42,173 nucleotides of DNA from Limisphaerales bacterium (GTDB taxonomy: Bacteria; Verrucomicrobiota; Verrucomicrobiia; Limisphaerales; UBA11358): NCBI GenBank assembly GCA_003134375.1, contig PLAY01000128.1, positions 1 through 42,173 of the forward strand. Direction: 5' to 3'. Within the stretch, counting starts at the first letter, position 1; the number at the start of each line of letters is the position of its first letter. Made by a program: the position numbers and the translations under genes. Below the pieces are notes generated by a model. That model was not told where the DNA came from, made no database searches, and saw only the letters and a list, made by a program, of their open reading frames with translations. Shown here piece by piece: positions 4,697 through 28,769 of the stretch.

Positions 4697-5476
4697 ATGG
4701 CTGGAAACGAATCTCCATTACCGGTGTTTTTATCAGGAATGAACCCACGGCGCGCATTCACCCTGATTGAATTGCTGGTGGTCATTGCGATCATCGCCAT
4801 TTTGGCCGCTTTGTTGTTGCCGGTTTTATCTGGCGCGAAAGCCCGGGCCAAGCGAACGGCGTGCTTGAATAATCTGAAACAAATCAATCTGGGCGTCCAT
4901 ATGTATGCCGGGGACAATGACGATACGTTGCCCAACACGGGCAATGCCACATATATTCTCTACAAAGAGGTCGTGAAAGGCCACGTCGGCTTGTATGGGC
5001 CGTCGTCGCCGTTGGACAAGATATTCGCCTGCCCGGCAGACACATTTCACTATAATGATTCTTCCCTTGCCTGTCTGCCGCATGGCCGTCACGAGCAGGG
5101 TGCTTATGATTTTTCAAGTTATGCGTTTAACGGCTGCAACCTGCTCACCACCAACTATCCCAATTTCGCTTACAACGGAGTCTTGCCCGGCGTCGGCGGC
5201 CAAAAACTCAGTGCGGTTAAAAATCCCGTCAAAACAGTTTTGGTTGAGGAAGCGTCGGCCCTCGAACCCTATTCATGGCATCAGCCGAAACCGCCGGTGT
5301 CTGGTGGCTGGCCGATGTTTAATGATGCCAGAAATATGGTTAGTTTTGTGGACGGCCACGTCAGCTACATCAAAATTTATTGGAACAGCACGATTGGTTA
5401 TCCCAATGGGGGCATCTCGGTAGCGGCTTATTACGATCCGCCCGCAGGATACGATTATCAATGGAGCGGAAATTAA
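4697..5476 (+). CDS. Type II-secretion pseudopilin-like protein, H-X9-DG type
   Basis: A short basic leader precedes the prepilin cleavage/methylation motif and one hydrophobic helix ([20 protein letters not shown]). Then come the usual [19 protein letters not shown] stretch and a globular domain ending near [12 protein letters not shown]. This is the architecture of the large Verrucomicrobia/Planctomycetes family of secreted pseudopilins with an H-X9-DG C-terminal motif; the histidine position is an asparagine here. Two starts are possible, 4697 or 4739 (MNPRRAFTL); the second gives the more usual short leader. It follows the exonuclease gene by 19 bp. A paralogue lies at 40867. Confidence 0.85.
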
Positions 5477-5507
5477 GCGGCAATTTATACCTTAAATCTT
5501 TCTCGTC

Positions 5508-6212
5508 ATGCACTTGCTCGTTTGCTTCGCCCTGAAAGAAGAAGCCGCGCCGTTTCGGAAAATGGCGGCGGGCAAATCTGGAATATCCATTCTCATCACC
5601 GGCATCGGACGCCGGAACGCCGAAAAATCCCTGCGCGAGTTTCTTGCCACCAATTCACCGGAACTGGTGCTGACCTGCGGTTTCGCCGGCGCGCTGAATC
5701 CGGATTTGAAACCCGGCGAAGTCGTTTTTGAACTAACCGATCGGAGGGGCGAGTTCCACGAGCCCCAAACTGAAAAGGAGTCAGGGGCTCGCAACGCTCT
5801 CCCCTCCGAAAGCTCCTCGCCCCTCCGGGAGAAATTGTTGGCTGCTGGCGCAAAACCGGCCAAGTTTTTCTGCGCCGATCACATCGCCACGACGGCTGTC
5901 GAAAAGAAAAAATTGCGCGCGGAAACCGGCGTGGACGCGGTGGAAATGGAATCGGGGGCGATTCATGCCATTTGCCGCGAGCGGGGGATTCCCTGTGCCA
6001 CCATCCGGGTGATTTCCGACACGGCAAACGAGGATTTGCCGCTGGATTTCAATGCACTGTCGAAGCCGGATTTAAGTCTGGATTACGGCAAACTGGCATG
6101 GGCAATTGCCAGGTCACCTGGAAAAATCAGCGCGTTGTTGAAGTTGCAGAAGCAAACCCGTTTCGCGGCGGAACGGCTGGCATCCGTTTTGGAGAAGATT
6201 GTTTCTGCTTAA
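5508..6212 (+). CDS. Nucleosidase/phosphorylase of the MTAN superfamily (HpnG-like), with an in-frame repeat insertion
   Basis: PNP/UDP-phosphorylase fold. The N-terminus CFALKEEAAPFRK carries the substrate-region glutamates; LVLTCGFAGALNPDLKPGEVV is the conserved glycine-rich part; VEMESGAIHAICRERGIP and RVISDTANED supply the catalytic and ribose-binding acidic residues. It could be an MTA/SAH nucleosidase or the hopanoid-pathway adenosylhopane phosphorylase HpnG. Proximity to hpnD/hpnK favours HpnG, but it is on the opposite strand and not in their operon. Residues 78-105 (TDRRGEFHEPQ to PLRE) are encoded by a palindromic repeat, leaving both conserved flanks intact. Confidence 0.8.
   Translation: MHLLVCFALKEEAAPFRKMAAGKSGISILITGIGRRNAEKSLREFLATNSPELVLTCGFAGALNPDLKPGEVVFELTDRRGEFHEPQTEKESGARNALPSESSSPLREKLLAAGAKPAKFFCADHIATTAVEKKKLRAETGVDAVEMESGAIHAICRERGIPCATIRVISDTANEDLPLDFNALSKPDLSLDYGKLAWAIARSPGKISALLKLQKQTRFAAERLASVLEKIVSA
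5742..5821 (+). repeat. Palindromic repeat inserted in frame in the nucleosidase gene
   Basis: Nested inverted repeats: cggagggg (5742-5749) with cccctccg (5801-5808), and cgagcccc (5759-5766) with ggggctcg (5784-5791). A diverged copy lies at 13910-13966, just upstream of yicC, and a half copy at 40781-40810. Confidence 0.85.
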
Positions 6213-10243: not shown

Positions 10244-11628
10244 TTGGCCGGGTTCATTAACGCTTTCGCCGGGAAGATTAACGTAAATTTCGCACCTTTT
10301 CCAAGCTCGGATTCAACGCGCACATTGCCGCCGTAAAGTTCGACGTTGTGTTTCACGATTGCGAGTCCCAGACCCGTGCCGCGTTCTTTTGTGGTGTAGT
10401 AAGCCTCGAAAATCCGTTCGATTTTGTCGGGCGCAATGCCAGGGCCGTCATCGCGCACGGAAATTTCAATCGAATGATCACGGTGACTGTCGGCGGTGAC
10501 AAACACGTTTCCCTTTTCAACGAGCGCTTCCTGGGCATTCTTTAAAAGGTTCACGAACACTTCGGACAAATGGCCGCGTTGCATCAGTAATGGCGGAAAA
10601 CCGCGACCGTATGCGCGGTGGACTTGAACGCCCGTTGGCACGACGGACGGGAACACCTGCGCAATGGTGCGGTTGAGTTCCTCGACGACGTTGAGTTTTT
10701 CGACATGACATTCACTCAATTGCGCATAGCCCATGATTTGGGTGATGACCTGATCGGCGCGCGCGACCTCCTCCTGAATGATTCCGATTTGCTGCGTGAC
10801 TTCAGTTCTGGCGTCCCGCAGGGCGCGTTGCAGCGAAAAGGCGGTGCTGTTGATGACGGCCAGCGGATTCTTGATTTGATGCGCAAACTCTGCGGCCAGC
10901 CTGCCAGCGGAACGCAGTTGTCCTTCCCGCGCGGCGAATTCTTCCGCTTCCTCGGCTGCCAGCCGCTGACGTTCCAACAGCGCCTGGGTGCCGTAGCAGC
11001 AAACCGTCGTGAGCAAAAGCACCGTCAACCGCAGCACAAACGGCTCGCCCCAATCCTCGTGCGGGGTTATATCCAGCGCGCGTCGCGTGAACTCGTCCAG
11101 ATTTTGGGCAACGGAACGGTCCAGGGCGACAACCAGCACGTAGCAAAGGCTGATCGCAAAATTCAGGAACAGTTGCGAAAAACCCACCGGAACACTCACC
11201 GCATTGCGGATGATCAATGCGACAAACAGCCAGAATAAAATGCTGTCCAGGCCGCCGGTGATCAGCATCATTCCCGTGAGGAAAAGTCCATCCACCAAAC
11301 TGCTCGTGACCACCGTCCATTGCACCACCGCCAGCGGCAGCCGTCTAAGGTTCAGCAGCAATGCGGCCAATACGCCGCTGGCCAGCACGTAAAACCAGAA
11401 AATATACTGGACCGTTTCGACCGTCACATCCAGCATGCTCAACGTCAACCCAAACCACGGCGTCGAAACAAATGAATAAAAAATGATCCCTACGGCGACC
11501 GCCTTCACCGGCAGCGTGATATTCCACTCCATGATTTCGATGCGGCGAAGCAGGCGTGGCGGATCCGGCGCCGGGATTTCCAGCAGCGTGAACAACCGCT
11601 TCCACCATTGCCAAAGGCTTGGTTTCAT
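10240..11628 (-). CDS. Membrane sensor histidine kinase, PilS-like
   Basis: The N-terminal 210 residues form about six hydrophobic segments with no large periplasmic domain. The HisKA box has H250 in AEFAHQIKNPLAVI, followed by HATPase motifs: N-box VFVNLLKNAQEAL, G1 RDDGPGIAPDKI, F-box EAYYTTKERG and G2 GTGLGLAIVKH. Lack of an extracellular domain suggests sensing in or at the membrane, as in PilS. It overlaps the response-regulator gene by 4 bp and follows coaC after 25 bp. Confidence 0.92.
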   Translation of the reverse strand: MKPSLWQWWKRLFTLLEIPAPDPPRLLRRIEIMEWNITLPVKAVAVGIIFYSFVSTPWFGLTLSMLDVTVETVQYIFWFYVLASGVLAALLLNLRRLPLAVVQWTVVTSSLVDGLFLTGMMLITGGLDSILFWLFVALIIRNAVSVPVGFSQLFLNFAISLCYVLVVALDRSVAQNLDEFTRRALDITPHEDWGEPFVLRLTVLLLTTVCCYGTQALLERQRLAAEEAEEFAAREGQLRSAGRLAAEFAHQIKNPLAVINSTAFSLQRALRDARTEVTQQIGIIQEEVARADQVITQIMGYAQLSECHVEKLNVVEELNRTIAQVFPSVVPTGVQVHRAYGRGFPPLLMQRGHLSEVFVNLLKNAQEALVEKGNVFVTADSHRDHSIEISVRDDGPGIAPDKIERIFEAYYTTKERGTGLGLAIVKHNVELYGGNVRVESELGKGAKFTLIFPAKALMNPAK

Positions 11629-11653
11629 AAGCTCGCGGCCGGCGGGAAAATTT

Positions 11654-12202
11654 TCAGCGCAGCAGTTTCAGCGCGCGCCGGGCAATCGCCTCCACCGGCC
11701 ACATCCGGCCAATGCCTTCGTAACCGCACGAAAGCATCCCTTCATCCGGACCGATGAATTCCGCGCCGCGCGCTTTCAGCGTTTTCACATTCTGCTGCGT
11801 GGCCGCGTGCCGCCACATTTTGCCGTTCATCGCCGGCGCGATTAAAATTTTCGCCTTCGGATTCAGCGCCAGCGCCATGCACGTCAGCGCGTCGTTCGCC
11901 AGGCCGTGCGCCAGTTTTGCGATGACGTTCGCCGTCGCCGGCGCGACCAGCAAAAGGCCGGCCTCGTCTGCCATTTCAATATGCACCGGTTTCCAGCCCT
12001 CCTCCTCGTCGTAAAGACCGGTCACGACCGGATTACGCGAGAGCACCTTGAACGGCAATGAGGTGATGAACCGTTGCGCGTCGGCGGTCATCACCACGCG
12101 CACGCTGCACTTTTCTTTCGTCAACAAGCTCGCCAGATCCGCCGCCTTGTGCGCGGCAATCGAGCCGGTTACGCCGAGAATGATGTTTTTATTTCTGCTC
12201 AT
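11654..12202 (-). CDS. coaC: Phosphopantothenoylcysteine decarboxylase domain (CoaC, stand-alone)
   Basis: Flavoprotein of coenzyme A synthesis that decarboxylates phosphopantothenoylcysteine. Visible are the FMN-binding start ILGVTGSIAAHKAADLASLL, a histidine in KPVHIEMADEAGLLLVAPATANVIAKLAHGLAND, the conserved APAMNGKMW, and the substrate clamp with its cysteine in GMLSCGYEGIGRM. At 182 residues it holds only the CoaC half; the CoaB synthetase half normally fused to it is absent here and must lie elsewhere. It follows gmk, as in many bacteria where gmk, rpoZ and dfp are neighbours, but no rpoZ is seen. Confidence 0.9.
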   Translation of the reverse strand: MSRNKNIILGVTGSIAAHKAADLASLLTKEKCSVRVVMTADAQRFITSLPFKVLSRNPVVTGLYDEEEGWKPVHIEMADEAGLLLVAPATANVIAKLAHGLANDALTCMALALNPKAKILIAPAMNGKMWRHAATQQNVKTLKARGAEFIGPDEGMLSCGYEGIGRMWPVEAIARRALKLLR

Positions 12203-12282
12203 GGTTTGTCATGTTGCGTGCTGCGAGCAAGTAATGACCTGTCGTGCCGCTTGATGCAACATGCAATACACAGCGCGCCCTT

Positions 12283-21283: not shown

Positions 21284-21949
21284 TCATGCGTTTTGGATCT
21301 TCAAAATGTTGCGGACAGTGGCCGGATACCAATTTTTCCCGTTGCGGGTGGGGATTCCACGGCGATTCAGACATTCACAGATGCCGCGGAGCGTTTGAAC
21401 ACCAGCGGATTTGATTTCTTCAATAATCGGAAACACCTTGGCGGCGAATTCCATCTTGGCGGTTTTGTTCGCCACTTTCATTGCGGCCACGGCCTTTTGA
21501 GGATTCGGCGTTCCCAATTTAATCCCCTTGTTTTTCAGTGCGGCTAAACCAAGCCGTGTGCGTTCCCCAATTAGTTCACGTTCCCGTTGTGCGACCAGTG
21601 CCAGAATTCCAACGGTGAATCGGTCTGCGTTCGGGCAATCGCAACAGACAAAATCGGCTCCACTGTTTTGAAGTCGTAAAAGGAATTCAGCGTTGCGGGC
21701 GAGCCTGTCCAATTTGGCAATGACCAAAGTGGCCTTGTTGCGTTTACAGTAATCCAAGGCTGCGGCCAACTGCGGTCTTTCGGAATCGGAATACTTTCCG
21801 CTCTCCACCTCACTGAATTTCATTTCCAAAACCCCGTGCTGGTTTTCAATAAACCGCCGAACGGTTTCCTGTTGTGCGGCCATTCCGTTGCCGGTCAGCC
21901 CCTGCTGTTGTGTCGAAACTCTGTAATATCCAACGAATTTTTTGTTCAT
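21284..21949 (-). CDS. Resolvase-size serine recombinase
   Basis: Catalytic serine S12 in GYYRVSTQQQ, with the conserved ESGKYSDSERPQLAAALDYC, LVIAKLDRLARN, and ERELIGERTRLGLAALKNKGIKLG regions. The C-terminal part (GICECLNRRGIPTRNGKNWYPATVRNIL) is a DNA-binding helix pair as in resolvases/invertases. About 221 residues; start at ATG 21949, with the longer 21967 start adding six unrelated residues. It has no zinc ribbon or coiled coil, so it is not itself a large integrase. It may resolve or invert DNA, or be the integrase of an older element. Upstream motif gacgggtca (21974-21982) recurs before the 22648 gene. Confidence 0.9.
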   Translation of the reverse strand: MNKKFVGYYRVSTQQQGLTGNGMAAQQETVRRFIENQHGVLEMKFSEVESGKYSDSERPQLAAALDYCKRNKATLVIAKLDRLARNAEFLLRLQNSGADFVCCDCPNADRFTVGILALVAQRERELIGERTRLGLAALKNKGIKLGTPNPQKAVAAMKVANKTAKMEFAAKVFPIIEEIKSAGVQTLRGICECLNRRGIPTRNGKNWYPATVRNILKIQNA

Positions 21950-22384
21950 AGCGATCCGGTAATCCACTTTCGGGACGGGTCAACGAGAAATTTAAAAAAT
22001 CTTAACGGAGGTAAAGAATTCGCTCCAGCCGCGCAAAAATTGCGTTTTCTGCGGATGTTGGTATGAAAATGCCGGAGTGCTGCTGCTACTTTTTTACCAG
22101 CCGCACTTTCTTTCAATAATGGGAAACCGCACTGGCCGACCGCACGGCGTTCGCCAGACGGTCAGGATGGTGGATTTGGACGCGGAGACGGTGGAACACC
22201 CTCAGTCTGAACCGAACTGCCAGACGCAATCTGGCGATAATTGAATACATGCGTATTTTTCCAAGAAATTCCTGACATCCCGATAAACGCCATGATACTT
22301 GGGGGGTGGCCCTCGTTTTTAGCCCCGCGACCAGAAGGCCACCGCCCGTATGGCAGTAGGGGAGAGGGGCTGGCTGGGTAATGG
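21950..22384. other. 435-bp gap without a convincing gene
   Basis: Contains an A/T-rich stretch (21985-22015) upstream of the recombinase gene that could hold its promoter, and a GC-rich host-like inverted repeat (gggtggcc at 22304-22311 against ggccacc at 22337-22343). An open frame here has poor composition and is not called. Confidence 0.6.
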
Positions 22385-22648
22385 TCAAACTTGCTCGTCT
22401 CTGTTACGCCGGATGACCTCGCGTGCTCTCTCTTTCATCTCCGCCCTTTTTCGGTCTTGGTTTTCCAGCCGTCTTTTTGTGATTTGAAAATCACGTTCGG
22501 CTTTTTCAGCCCGTAATTTTTCCATTTCTTCCGGCGGTGGAAATCCAATCCACGCTTTGCAGCCTGATTTCCGAAGTGTTTCCACAATCAATTGAGCCAA
22601 CGGGTCAACGGAGCCGCTGGCGTTTTGGGTTTCTGTAATCTGATCCAT
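22385..22648 (-). CDS. Small charged helical protein
   Basis: 87 residues. The first half is ordinary (PLAQLIVETLRKSGCKAWIGFPPPE), the second an almost continuous charged helix (EEMEKLRAEKAERDFQITKRRLEN) likely to form a coiled coil. No family recognised. A purine-rich ribosome site (cgaaagg) precedes the ATG. The motif gacgggtca at 22673-22681 is shared with the recombinase leader. Confidence 0.6.
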   Translation of the reverse strand: MDQITETQNASGSVDPLAQLIVETLRKSGCKAWIGFPPPEEMEKLRAEKAERDFQITKRRLENQDRKRAEMKERAREVIRRNRDEQV

Positions 22649-22859
22649 AATGCTAAACCTTTCGTTTTTGGTGACGGGTCATTCCACCACCGGATATAAA
22701 TATCTGTCAGCGCCGACAAGGTGCGGGATTTCAACGGCAAAAAAAACACCCCCCAGCCTTCGGGTCTCCCATGCGTTTATTTGCCGAAACTTTTCATGTG
22801 GTAAAGTCCCGTAATTTTATTTTGCGCCAAGTGTGGATTGTTTCGCTGAATCAATTCTG

Positions 22860-23694
22860 ACTGCGTATTTATTCCTGTGATGACGCTGTTATCGCATCAG
22901 GATTTAGAGAGTGTCGGCTTCAAACAGCGGTAAACGGGTCATCACAACCTTTCGGAAATTTGAACTGGCACTCTTTCTTTTTCGGAAGTGATGGATGAGA
23001 CACCGTGGCAGGTTACACAAGGACTCATTCAAAGAAATCCGGCAACCGCTGTAAGAATTGAAGCGTGGATTAACCGCCACGACGAAGATGCGGTAGAAAA
23101 CAAAGGATTGGTTTGATGCTGCCAGTTCTGCGAAAGCAGACGAACAAAAATATACGGATTAAAAACCCGTTTGATACCTAATACCAAAGTGGTTCACCGC
23201 AAGGTGAATGACAGCATTGCCGATGGTGAAAACAAACATGGAGCCGAAAGGCTTAAACATTCCAAGATGCTACCGGAAGTTTTAAGGACATATTTCTTCC
23301 GCCTCTGACCAACGAATTGAGAAGCGTTGGCATGAAGGCAATAGGCAATGGCTATCCCTTTAATGGGAAAGTGAAGCATCGCCGGAAAGTATCCCTGCTG
23401 CTCGGGGTAGGAAGAGCAGAATGCCAAGTGGAAAACAAATCTTTCAGACACAGTTACCCCGTTTATCGGGGTGACTGTGTCCTTCAGAGATTCTGCTAAG
23501 GGGAAAATTCTAATGAGAGCAGAGCAATTAAGCCGCGCATAAAACTTACACAGTGACGCCAACCGCACTTCGTTTTTATTCTGTAAAAAAGATTCAGTTG
23601 TCATCGGAAAACAGAGGGGCACAGGGACACTGAAGTTTCAAAGCAACCGTTACAAATAAAACGAGGCCCGTCAGTTTTAGTGACGGGCCTCTTT
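22860..23694 (+). ncRNA. Candidate large structured RNA of about 0.8 kb
   Basis: No credible protein is encoded on either strand between 22650 and 23746, yet the plus strand is packed with compact stems. A GAAA-capped stem is at 23127-23140, a GCAA-capped stem at 23193-23208, and a GAAA-capped stem at 23242-23253. A 5-bp stem lies at 23065-23082 and a short stem at 23355-23368. A 14-bp hairpin at 23447-23481 is enclosed by an 8-bp helix pairing 23415-23422 with 23490-23497. A long-range helix pairs about 22907-22914 with 22967-22974. The tetraloops are of GNRA type only when read on the plus strand, which sets the direction. A strong terminator ends it at 23694. The 5' end is approximate. Scale and setting recall GOLLD, ROOL and similar ornate RNAs, but I recognise no family signature. 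Confidence 0.55.
23663..23694 (+). terminator. Intrinsic terminator of the RNA candidate
   Basis: An 11-bp stem (gaggcccgtca / tgacgggcctc), a 7-base loop and a short T run. T-rich sequence on the opposite strand would also let it end the convergent clamp-like gene transcript. Confidence 0.85.
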
Positions 23695-23746
23695 GCGGCT
23701 CAAATTTCTTAAAGAATTAAACGACGCCAATTCCTTTTGGCATTGT

Positions 23747-24493
23747 TCATTCCTCAGTGTCTATTTCGACCAGATAATACTCGGAGTCCAAATCATCTTC
23801 TGAAAATGCAATTGATGCCAAACCAGCATCAGACACTTTCAAAATCGGGTCTTTGAACTCAGGGTTTGCTTTCAACGCTTCTTTCAAATGTCTGGCCGTA
23901 AAACTGAGTGGAGCTTTCACGGCATTTTTGTCATCCACAGTGTCGGGCTGAAAATAGAAGCTGTCGGGATAACCTCGTTCACGATAATTCAAAACAACTT
24001 CAAGATTTCCAGTTTGTTTGGACATGACCACTGTGAACAATGTTTCATGATCGCCAATTGCGGTGTAAGCACTCATAAACCAATCAATGAATTCGGCGTC
24101 CATTTTGATGGCGACGTTGAAAGGCGGAATGTTTTTCATCTCTGGAATACCGTTAATGGCATCTAGGCTCGAAGTCCCATATTGCATTTTACTTTTCGCG
24201 GCAGAAAACGTCAGGGCTGCCACTTCGCCTGTAGCGTGTTTCAAAATATCCATCGAAACATCTTCAGACGGTATGGCTTTCAATAATGCCAGAAGTTTCT
24301 TCGTGTCCAAGATGCCAATTTGTGCATCTTCAACACCGTCAAAGTCCTTCAATGTAACCCCGGCAAACAGCTTCTTGTCATCTGTCATTGCTTCAACCCG
24401 CAATGTCCCACTACCCTTAACCCAGATCGCCGAGTTAATTACGCCGTTCAAATGGTATTTGTTGATGAAACGTTCAATCAGATTTTTTTTCAT
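23747..24493 (-). CDS. Possible phage gp45-type sliding-clamp-like protein
   Basis: 248 residues. The first 75 (LIERFINKYHLNGVINSAIWVKGSG ... FDGVEDAQIGILDTKKLLALLK) follow the order of T4 gp45's start: helix, strand with glycine turn, FDV.I.DL..FL..L. The second half repeats a similar plan (MDAEFIDWFMSAYTAIG ... HLKEALKANPEFKDPILKVSDAGLASIAF), ending in an acidic EIDTEE. This two-fold strand-helix pattern is that of DNA clamps. No polymerase or clamp loader is present in the element, so it would have to act with host or co-resident phage proteins, or has another job. The fold call is from pattern only. Confidence 0.5.
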   Translation of the reverse strand: MKKNLIERFINKYHLNGVINSAIWVKGSGTLRVEAMTDDKKLFAGVTLKDFDGVEDAQIGILDTKKLLALLKAIPSEDVSMDILKHATGEVAALTFSAAKSKMQYGTSSLDAINGIPEMKNIPPFNVAIKMDAEFIDWFMSAYTAIGDHETLFTVVMSKQTGNLEVVLNYRERGYPDSFYFQPDTVDDKNAVKAPLSFTARHLKEALKANPEFKDPILKVSDAGLASIAFSEDDLDSEYYLVEIDTEE

Positions 24494-24589: not shown

Positions 24590-25444
24590 TTACGCAGGGG
24601 TCATTTCGGCAACTTCAACAGGCTGACGGTTTAGTTCCATTGAAAAAGGTGGAACGATGTCCATCAACTTTACTTCCGGTGTGACTTCCGGTTTGGTCGT
24701 TGTGTTTGCCAAGATGATTGTTGTTACAATTTCGGACAACACGATGCCCGCTTTGGCGCAAATCTCATCTTCATGGGTCAAAGATGTGAATTCACGCTTC
24801 GCAACCCAATTTCGCAAATCATGGAATAAGGCGGCGCCGAAATTTGCTCCGTCATCGGAACAGGGTTTGTTGTTCTTTATCGTCCATGTTGACAGGTTCC
24901 AATTGATTCGTTTTGAGGCGTCAATCGTATTGCGAACAAACGTTTGGATTTTTTGACGTGCCTCGTTCAACTTCGCATCATATTGACCCTTGTCCGTTTT
25001 CTTCATTTTTTCAGGTGTGATTTCACCCTCGGCATTTTCCGGCGTGGACTGTTCAGTGCCGGTTTGTTCCGTGTTGATCTTTTCTTTGATGATGCCAACA
25101 CAAATGTAAGCCTGACGGAGGCTTTCGGCTTCGGTCAAAAGCGCAATATATTGCGTTTCTGCTGCCTTCTTAGCCAACTTCATGTAGTTCTGAGCCGTCC
25201 GTATTGAGATACCCTTCACATTTTCCGACAACCATTTTTCCCAATCGTTATGTTTGACCAGCTTCTTGGCTTCAATCAGGACGCCCCCCGCCTTGAGAGC
25301 AAGCTCCAAGGCTGCCTTGCCGTGTTTGATGGACAGAGCGTCATTGGACTCAATGTCCGTTTGTAGCTGATTCAATTCTTCAGCGTATTGCTTGAGCTGT
25401 TGAATCTCGGTTTCGTTTAGTTTGGTATTACGTTTTGTACTCAT
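24590..25444 (-). CDS. DUF3102-like element protein
   Basis: About 284 residues. The N-terminal 110 contain HGKAALELALKAGGVLIEAKKLVKHNDWEKWLSENV and ISIRTAQNYMKLAKKA, the pattern of DUF3102 proteins from plasmids and integrative elements. The second half of that is helix-turn-helix-like. The middle is a charged Thr/Glu linker, and the C-terminal part (IQTFVRNTIDASKRINWNLS) is unassigned. ATG 25444 is chosen because the longer frame to 25492 reads through the tandem 18-bp repeats. A DNA-binding regulator or partition-like role is a reasonable guess. Confidence 0.75.
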   Translation of the reverse strand: MSTKRNTKLNETEIQQLKQYAEELNQLQTDIESNDALSIKHGKAALELALKAGGVLIEAKKLVKHNDWEKWLSENVKGISIRTAQNYMKLAKKAAETQYIALLTEAESLRQAYICVGIIKEKINTEQTGTEQSTPENAEGEITPEKMKKTDKGQYDAKLNEARQKIQTFVRNTIDASKRINWNLSTWTIKNNKPCSDDGANFGAALFHDLRNWVAKREFTSLTHEDEICAKAGIVLSEIVTTIILANTTTKPEVTPEVKLMDIVPPFSMELNRQPVEVAEMTPA

Positions 25445-25460
25445 TTTTTGTTTTTGTTTT

Positions 25461-25496
25461 AGGGCATGGACCATGCGTAGGGCATAGTTCATGCGT
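25461..25496. promoter_or_regulatory. Tandem 18-bp repeats upstream of the DUF3102-like gene
   Basis: Two adjacent copies (25461-25478 and 25479-25496) differ at three positions. The first holds a near-perfect palindrome gcatggaccatgc. Position 16 bp before the chosen start suggests paired operators in the leader, perhaps bound by the gene's own product. Confidence 0.6.
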
Positions 25497-25640: not shown

Positions 25641-26495
25641 TTAGCGTGCCCTAAGATGCCACTGGTCGTTGAGAAAAAACCACCGGCTTTCAAATAAAAC
25701 ATTCTGTTTTTTAGACTGGTCAAATTCCATCTTCCCCCAGTCACGGCCCCGTTTGATTCGCGGCTTTTTCCACCAATCGGGACGGATGTCCGGTAAAAGG
25801 CGTATTGGAGTGGTTGCGCCGTCTGTTGTGGTTATGGAGTATGATTGCTTTTCAAAGTTGATTGTAAGGCAGGTCACAAGGTTTGGAAGAAGCTGAACAA
25901 GTTTTGCCCTAACTTCGGGATTCCTCAAAGCCTGTTCTAACTGTTCAACCTTATTCCAGTCATTAACCGCTAACACTTTTTCTATGTCGGCAACTGCTGT
26001 TAGTTGGGTGCGTGACTTAATCAAGTCCGTAAAAAATAACATGAAAAAGTCAATTTCAACCGCGTCAATGCGAGCCATCGCTCTAAAATAGGCGCGGCAT
26101 TTAGCACTGCATCTGTAATACCGCCTCACGGTTGTTCCTTTATATGTATCTGCTCCGCCTTTGGTGTTGTGAGTGGTAACTGAAGCGCCACAGGCAGCGC
26201 ACCTGACACGATTGGGGAACAGATTTGAAATCCAGTCGTTCCCTCTCTTGCCACCTCTCCTGCCTTTGTTCTGGCTCAACTTGGCTTGAAGTGATGCAAA
26301 TTCTTCATCGGTTAGAACTTTGCGAACTAATTCAGACCTTAACTGGGGAGCAACCTGCCCTTGCGTCCATTGGATGCCGCCTCCAAAGCAAGGAACGTGT
26401 TTAGCGTTTAGGGCCTTCGCAATGTGCTGCATCGAATGCCCATCAATGTAGGCAAGGCAGATTTTCTTAACCGCACTGGATTTCTGATTGGACAT
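25641..26495 (-). CDS. Large serine recombinase fragment without catalytic domain
   Basis: 284 residues that correspond only to the middle and end of a large serine recombinase. A recombinase domain opens it (VKKICLAYIDGHSMQHIAKALNAKHVPCF), then a zinc ribbon with CAAC and later cysteines (VRCAACGASVTTHN ... RYYRCSAKCRAYF). The resolvase domain with catalytic serine is missing: upstream lie only a terminator and another gene. It has a proper ATG and an intact frame, so it may be either a decayed older integrase or a retained DNA-binding/directionality protein. The window's other small serine recombinase has exactly the catalytic part it lacks. Confidence 0.8.
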   Translation of the reverse strand: MSNQKSSAVKKICLAYIDGHSMQHIAKALNAKHVPCFGGGIQWTQGQVAPQLRSELVRKVLTDEEFASLQAKLSQNKGRRGGKRGNDWISNLFPNRVRCAACGASVTTHNTKGGADTYKGTTVRRYYRCSAKCRAYFRAMARIDAVEIDFFMLFFTDLIKSRTQLTAVADIEKVLAVNDWNKVEQLEQALRNPEVRAKLVQLLPNLVTCLTINFEKQSYSITTTDGATTPIRLLPDIRPDWWKKPRIKRGRDWGKMEFDQSKKQNVLFESRWFFLNDQWHLRAR

Positions 26496-27143: not shown

Positions 27144-28769
27144 TCAATTATACGAAATGGAATTTAGAAACACACCGTCTTTCCCAATTGTCAGGGAAAT
27201 CCTTTTCCCGTCCATAAACTGGCAAAAGGCTTTTGGCATATTGCCGAATTTAATCTGTATGCCATCAAAAACGCTTGGCATCATGTTCCTAATCCGTTGC
27301 CGTTCTTCCGTGGATTTAAGGTGTTCTTTGATTCGGGCCAATTCATCTTGCACCATTTTTTTACTGACGGCTTTGAGATGCAAAACACCATTGACCACCT
27401 GAGCATTCTTGTTGCTAAATTTGTCTCGCAACATTCCGACTGCCTTTGGTGTATTGCTAATGACAGACACCTTGGCTTTTTCCGCCTCAATACTTTTTAC
27501 CAATTGTCCCTTTTCCCCGTTTAACCGAGCAAGTTTTACAGACAGTTCTTTCATGTCGGCCAATTCGTCACTGTCCAACAATTCCATGCAACGGCCAATG
27601 CCGGTCTGAATTTTTGCGAGTTTATTTTCCAATTCATCCAAGACATCATTTGTCTGTGGGGTTTGATTGTTAAAATCATCCAGATTCAAAATGGCTTGGA
27701 AAATTCTTGCTTCAAATTCAGAAACAGAAACCCGCCCCTTGTTGGTGCAACCGCTTTTGTGTTTCACACCACGGCAAATATAATCCGCGTAGTGGTTCGT
27801 TATTCCTTTAACATTTTTGTATGAGCCGATTTTAGTTTCAATGACTTGGCCACATTCCAAACAGGTCAGCAAATTTTTGAATAAATTTCTGACAAGCCCG
27901 TATTTGCTGCCACCCCTGTTTTTGACGTTGAACGCCAATTTCTGCTGTGTGAGTTGAAAAACTTTCTCCGTTACGATTGCGGGAAAATAATTGTCCTGTT
28001 CAAAATCATTTATGCCTATCCAGCCGATGCAGTTTTTATTTTTGAGCAAGCACGCGACAGTTGAATTTGTCCAGATGCCATTTTTGAATTTTCGCAAAGT
28101 GGGTATTTTGGATTTATTCAGGTCGTTAGCAATGCGTGTGCAACTGTGGCCTGCCAAGTAATGAGCAAAGATGTTTTTTACAAGTTTCACCCTGTCGTCA
28201 TCCAAAACAAATTTGCCGTCCTTGAATCCGACAATCCAACTTGGTTTTTGAACCGCAAACCAAACTTTTTCCCCTTTGTTTGCTTTTTCAATTTTTGCCG
28301 CAATGACGGATTTTATCCGCTTGGATTTGGTTTCTGATTCATTGTTTGCCCGCGCAAATTCCACCAGCACGAGCATTAACTCCATTGGATTTTCCGTGAT
28401 GCTCTTGGTATCTAAAATTTTATTTTGAGAAATTACGCCGATAGATACCCTCTTGTTTATTATTTCAATAAATTTTGACAGGCAGGGAAGGATTGATTGG
28501 CGTGAAAGCCTGTCCATGTTTTCCACGATCAGAACGGAACCCGGCTCCACCTTTTCATTCTCCACCAACTTCAAGAATTGAGACAATGCGGATTCATTGG
28601 AAAAATTCTTTCCCTTGAATCCGCTAACCCCTTCATCCGTAAATGTGTCAACAAGGGTCAAACCGTGTTGTTTGCAAAAAACCGCTGCTGCACCGCTCTG
28701 GCGTTTGGTTGAATCCCCGCCCTTTTGTTTAATGGACGAGAACCTCTGATATGAGTATGCTTTTCTCAT
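27144..28769 (-). CDS. Large serine recombinase (integrase of the element)
   Basis: 541 residues in the order of phage-type large serine integrases. The catalytic domain has S11 in YSYQRFSSIKQKGGDSTKRQ and VLIVENMDRLSRQ. A recombinase domain follows (VKLVKNIFAHYLAGHSCTRIANDLNKSKIPTL), then a zinc ribbon (LLTCLECGQVIETKIGSYK ... DYICRGVKHKSGC) and a coiled-coil region (LDELENKLAKIQTGIGRCMELL). Its ATG at 28769 overlaps the ATG of the divergent NYN gene in the single tetranucleotide CATG. It is 85 bp from the attR core, the usual position for the enzyme that made the insertion. Confidence 0.95.
   Translation of the reverse strand: MRKAYSYQRFSSIKQKGGDSTKRQSGAAAVFCKQHGLTLVDTFTDEGVSGFKGKNFSNESALSQFLKLVENEKVEPGSVLIVENMDRLSRQSILPCLSKFIEIINKRVSIGVISQNKILDTKSITENPMELMLVLVEFARANNESETKSKRIKSVIAAKIEKANKGEKVWFAVQKPSWIVGFKDGKFVLDDDRVKLVKNIFAHYLAGHSCTRIANDLNKSKIPTLRKFKNGIWTNSTVACLLKNKNCIGWIGINDFEQDNYFPAIVTEKVFQLTQQKLAFNVKNRGGSKYGLVRNLFKNLLTCLECGQVIETKIGSYKNVKGITNHYADYICRGVKHKSGCTNKGRVSVSEFEARIFQAILNLDDFNNQTPQTNDVLDELENKLAKIQTGIGRCMELLDSDELADMKELSVKLARLNGEKGQLVKSIEAEKAKVSVISNTPKAVGMLRDKFSNKNAQVVNGVLHLKAVSKKMVQDELARIKEHLKSTEERQRIRNMMPSVFDGIQIKFGNMPKAFCQFMDGKRISLTIGKDGVFLNSISYN

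Follow-up and report, generated by a model that had tools for sequence, protein, structure and literature searches.

Large noncoding RNAs of mobile elements are few in number, and the role of the most ornate of them, GOLLD and ROOL, is not settled. ROOL is about 0.6-0.7 kb long, has a complex fold with long-range helices and is carried by mobile elements, whereas GOLLD is about 0.8 kb long, occurs in phages and prophages and in one case is expressed during lysis; both are of unknown function (PMC12286853). In phage ICP1, about 1 kb of gene-free DNA in a packed genome yields a transcript of about 800 nt that its authors likened to GOLLD and ROOL, illustrating that the most abundant transcript of a packed mobile genome can come from a gene-free kilobase (PMC7567579). 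Here we describe a gene-free stretch of a Verrucomicrobiota element that an earlier note had proposed as a new large RNA of this kind. We find the candidate better supported than at that first reading and a good lead, although a new RNA family is not established because there are only two sequences, one of them a partial counterpart.

The window, by which we mean the whole 42,173-nt stretch of DNA analyzed, belongs to a draft genome of 4.16 Mb. Between approximately 18 and 29 kb of the window G+C content is 0.38-0.50, down from about 0.58, and this segment is an integrated mobile element. Its minus strand encodes a large serine recombinase that is probably the integrase of the element (27144-28769; 87% identical in genome G012), a DUF3102 protein (24590-25492), a clamp-like protein of the DNA polymerase processivity factor family (23747-24493) and a small serine recombinase with Resolvase and Recombinase domains, here called rec1 (21284-21967). 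A further small minus-strand protein, p87 (22385-22648; 48-51% identity to its homologue in genome G010), forms a cassette with rec1 and is divergent from the candidate RNA, for which the clamp-like gene is the convergent neighbor. The interval between p87 and the clamp-like gene, about 1.1 kb (22649-23746), is free of genes.

Several other features of the element were observed. The clamp-like protein shows 28% identity over nearly its full length to a frame in the 484-kb uncultured phage LR756508, which hints at an origin in a large phage. The large serine recombinase and a YacP-like gene (NYN_YacP) start back to back at 28768-28769; in G012 (L078 2735-4874) the 87% identical recombinase adjoins a 65% identical YacP gene, which probably reflects an integration site common to both. 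The relative in G035, a sister species, is not beside a YacP match. The protein at 25641-26495, between the DUF3102 gene and p180, corresponds to a large serine recombinase in its C-terminal parts only: it has Recombinase and zinc ribbon domains but no catalytic domain. A 91-aa frame between p87 and rec1 (22113-22388) has no Pfam match and, judged by eye, looks repeat-derived and not like a gene.

Codon-usage scores for all six frames were around zero or below from about 22800 to 23740, and clearly positive for both flanking genes. None of the reading frames tested within the stretch gave a convincing match to a Pfam or PHROG family. These results bear out the proposal that no plausible protein is encoded here, and this absence of coding capacity is what a general test for a large structured noncoding RNA looks for. 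Degeneration of a former gene was rejected by the codon scan, which found no trace of earlier coding, and by comparison with the genes of G035.

No Rfam 15 family reached its gathering score anywhere in the window, and a permissive search of 22640-23760 returned spurious sub-threshold matches only, in agreement with the expectation that the candidate lies outside known families. The covariance models for ROOL and GOLLD and those for domain V/VI of group II introns were among the models that found no match at either level. By the tests run, the candidate belongs to neither GOLLD nor ROOL, nor to any other family in Rfam; the likeness to these RNAs that the earlier note had drawn stands for size and mobile location but does not extend to membership. 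A tRNA search of the window found none; the setting is mobile, as for ROOL, but is not near a tRNA island.

The candidate RNA is placed on the plus strand, with tentative ends, at about 22850-23600, its strand following from the GNRA loops and the syntenic counterpart described below. In its predicted 5' domain, a 15-bp helix pairs 22917-22931 with 23045-23064, the latter including a 5-nt bulge. A 12-bp helix whose two strands are separated by about 490 nt closes the 3' domain, and in it ACGAAG-A-TGCGGT (23082-23094) pairs with ACCGCA-CTTCGT (23562-23573, ACCGCACTTCGT); long-range pairings, as earlier claimed, are thus present. Hairpins within this domain carry a GAAA loop at 23127-23140, a GCAA loop on 7 bp at 23192-23209 and a second GAAA loop at 23241-23254. 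These three GNRA hairpins of at least 5 bp compare with none on the minus strand and with a mean of 0.23 in dinucleotide shuffles, only one of 500 of which reached three, which upholds the description of at least three GNRA-closed stems on the plus strand alone. Further downstream, a nested domain (23415-23497) consists of an 8-bp closing helix (23415-23422/23490-23497) around a hairpin (23447-23461/23467-23481; local z -7.5). The nesting and the 8-bp helix are as first described, and the hairpin is 15 bp long rather than 14.

Folding energy over the whole region gave z scores of -4.7 on the plus strand and -4.8 on the minus strand. Once the 15-bp hairpin and the terminator-like hairpin described next were removed, z was -1.7, within the range of coding neighbors (-0.6 to -2.8). 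Helices of at least 8 bp numbered 19 against 14.5 expected, a marginal excess matched by 11 of 100 shuffles. What lifts the stretch above chance is therefore its tetraloops, its nested hairpin and its absence of coding, and not bulk folding energy.

The transcription signals at the locus were less favorable. In a terminator-like hairpin at 23663-23691 the T-run lies on the minus strand, the only strand on which a terminator scan called the full hairpin. This hairpin probably ends the minus-strand clamp operon. The position of the T-run weakens the earlier terminator claim, and a plus transcript ending at 23694 is for the same reason unsupported. Directly upstream of the stretch we found no promoter-like site.

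Searches by blastn covered 49 genomes from the family, 320 from the order and 388 from the phylum, together with phages and plasmids, and found no close copy of the stretch; its own genome likewise holds no repeat copies elsewhere. Scanning genome contigs with the clamp-like protein recovered only G035, where other genes occupy the position of the RNA, whereas searching with p87 led to G010, a second species and the only counterpart found. IMG/VR searches with the clamp-like protein, the DUF3102 protein, the large recombinase, p87 and rec1 gave no relatives.

A number of candidate matches were rejected. A match to the R1 model in G010 (C66:52609-52782) and a 23-base blastn match in G039 each lie inside a long ORF, though the contig in each case also holds a p87 match, and an R3 match in G028 (L124) falls within an ORF of 899 aa. 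A 17-base hairpin motif was found in 17 IMG/VR contigs; in several of those with the longest match it falls inside one phage coding gene, and other contigs among the 17 carry tRNA arrays. The motif ACTGYGTC..AGAGATTCT occurs in 38 IMG/VR contigs with no similarity beyond the motif, and three matches of 21-31 bases to the G010 stretch likewise had no further similarity. G041 encodes a rec1 that is 80% identical but has neither p87 nor a similar stretch. Separately, a gene-free stretch in genome G273 (L067 4835-5560, minus strand) lies upstream of a rec1 of 51% identity. Its predicted fold contains three GNRA loops, and z is about -3 on either strand for 4835-6013; eight genomes of the same genus hold no copy of the stretch, which is possibly another large RNA.

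Synteny with G010 is the best support for a structured RNA. In that species rec1 is 76% identical and p87 48% identical, within an element that otherwise differs: the integrase is a tyrosine recombinase, with a tRNA gene directly beyond it, in contrast to the large serine recombinase of the window, and the convergent neighbor is a DruA-like gene instead of the clamp-like gene. This DruA-like gene, of a Druantia component family, lies directly beside the RNA-like stretch (L042 12212-13441). DNA similarity between the two loci ends about 60 bases upstream of p87 (window 22706, L042 11298). In the same position and on the same strand, L042 has a gene-free stretch of about 700 nt (about 11500-12215) with no coding signal. 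Its folding z of -5.2 becomes -2.4 without its hairpin, as compared with +1.1 to -1.3 for coding neighbors. Rfam searches of this stretch gave no match, and related loci yielded tRNAs only.

Both stretches have a long hairpin within a closing helix near the 3' end, and both carry the motif ACTG(T/C)GTC..AGAGATTCT after this stem, followed by AACCGCAC. In each, the AACCGCAC segment, which in the window forms part of the 3' strand of the long-range helix, pairs with a site approximately 490-530 nt upstream. The G010 helix differs in sequence from that of the window, GAGAATCG-C-TGTG pairing with CGCA-C-CGATTCTC at nearly the same spacing; it was matched by 2.2% of shuffles and by 0.8% of other windows of the locus. 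When the 3' segment with the shared motifs was placed in G010, 30 of 1000 shuffles did as well (42 of 1000 in another run). With segments fixed by the stem, flank similarity exceeded that of all 5000 shuffles, a choice of segments made after looking. The two stretches are almost the same in base composition and in their content of unpaired A, with a purine bias that coding strands also show.

Other comparisons were less discriminating. The closing helix alone was no better than chance in G010, and beyond the 3' domain the stretches do not align, though neighboring genes are about 70% identical in DNA. Full-length structural alignment scored 262, not separable from controls at 205-269, and a model built from the 3' domain of the window alone ranked the correct place in G010 second, with an E value of 0.6. 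Covariation in homologues, which the earlier note had named as a check on the stems, could be assessed in two sequences only: between the stem cores GACACAGT/ACTGTGTC in the window and GGCGCAGT/ACTGCGTC in G010 there are two changes, one compensatory and one single-sided, and the long-range helix is changed yet complementary. With so few sequences this is suggestive and not statistical proof. The tests of the G010 comparison are individually modest (p about 0.01-0.04), drawn from two sequences with several of the comparisons picked after looking. Taken with the shared position, they suggest that the two stretches are probably homologous.

Could the stretch work as DNA? It would then contain sites at which the small serine recombinase recombines DNA, an origin region of the element or what is left of an inserted repeat, and its several inverted repeats would be bound by proteins or form cruciforms instead of RNA helices. 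In favor of this, the genes for a small serine recombinase and for a clamp-like replication protein are close by, and the folding excess is equal on both strands. Yet GNRA loops occur on one strand only, blastn finds no repeat copies elsewhere in the genome, the window holds no 12-base antisense match, and G010 shares the long-range complementarity with changed sequence, which is not required of a protein-binding site. We regard a function as DNA as unlikely. Functionless spacer or decayed DNA between two modules, with chance structure from which the best hairpins were chosen, would explain why the folding excess drops to the level of the coding neighbors once two hairpins are removed, why the stretch is not found in other genomes by blastn and why the sister element in G035 has other genes at that place. 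This too seems improbable given the tetraloop excess, the lack of any trace of former coding and the presence at the same place in G010 of a structured gene-free stretch with shared motifs.

A role in regulating the convergent minus-strand operon (clamp, DUF3102), as an antisense RNA or a long untranslated transcript, is very unlikely: the stretch is convergent with the clamp-like gene, as its counterpart in G010 is with the DruA-like gene, but this neighbor differs between the two elements, and no complementarity of at least 12 bases to the rest of the window was found. We consider a new structured RNA outside Rfam the likeliest interpretation, and on balance we favor a functional RNA encoded on the plus strand. 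The original proposal of a new large RNA thus gains from the absence of Rfam matches and from the syntenic stretch in G010, and is weakened in its terminator.

If the stretch encodes such an RNA, it would be a folded plus-strand transcript of about 0.7-0.8 kb that starts divergently from p87 and extends at least as far as the AACCGCAC motif near 23573. A 5' domain would be followed by a large 3' domain closed by the helix 23082-23094/23562-23573, containing the GNRA-capped hairpins and the long nested hairpin. The RNA would form part of a cassette with rec1 and p87 within otherwise different integrative elements, and would most likely act as a folded RNA or as an RNA-protein particle in the service of the element itself. 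Its association with rec1 and p87, seen twice in elements with different integrases, makes a role for the element likelier than one for the host and p87 the first candidate partner to test for binding. The RNA could act, for example, at excision or replication, but any specific role of this kind is far more tentative. More speculative, and in our view doubtful, is a new large ornate RNA family that travels together with p87 and a small serine recombinase as one cassette, evolves fast while mainly keeping its architecture, and forms a particle or cofactor for recombination or spread.

Linkage of an RNA to a definite recombinase cassette would give direct access to its function, since genes for candidate partners are already available. 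Should the two stretches be homologous, such RNAs can diverge past sequence recognition within one genus, and present searches would therefore miss most of them.

Among described systems, group II introns, including circularly permuted ones (PMC8637638), resemble the candidate in being large, tetraloop-rich, mobile and sometimes ORF-less, but it matches no group II model at gathering or permissive threshold. With the ICP1 transcript it has in common about 1 kb of gene-free DNA in a packed mobile genome; host and phage are different, RNA-seq support belongs to the ICP1 transcript whereas the candidate is known from sequence alone, and the one sequence comparison that bears on ICP1, a search of the phage collection with the stretch, gave no match. 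GOLLD is similar in its size of about 0.8 kb and its habitat (PMC12286853), and differs in that the candidate has no Rfam match and no tRNA within or beside it. To ROOL the candidate is akin in size, in a complex fold with long-range helices and in carriage by a mobile element (PMC12286853), and it is set apart by its lack of an Rfam match and of an adjoining tRNA island.
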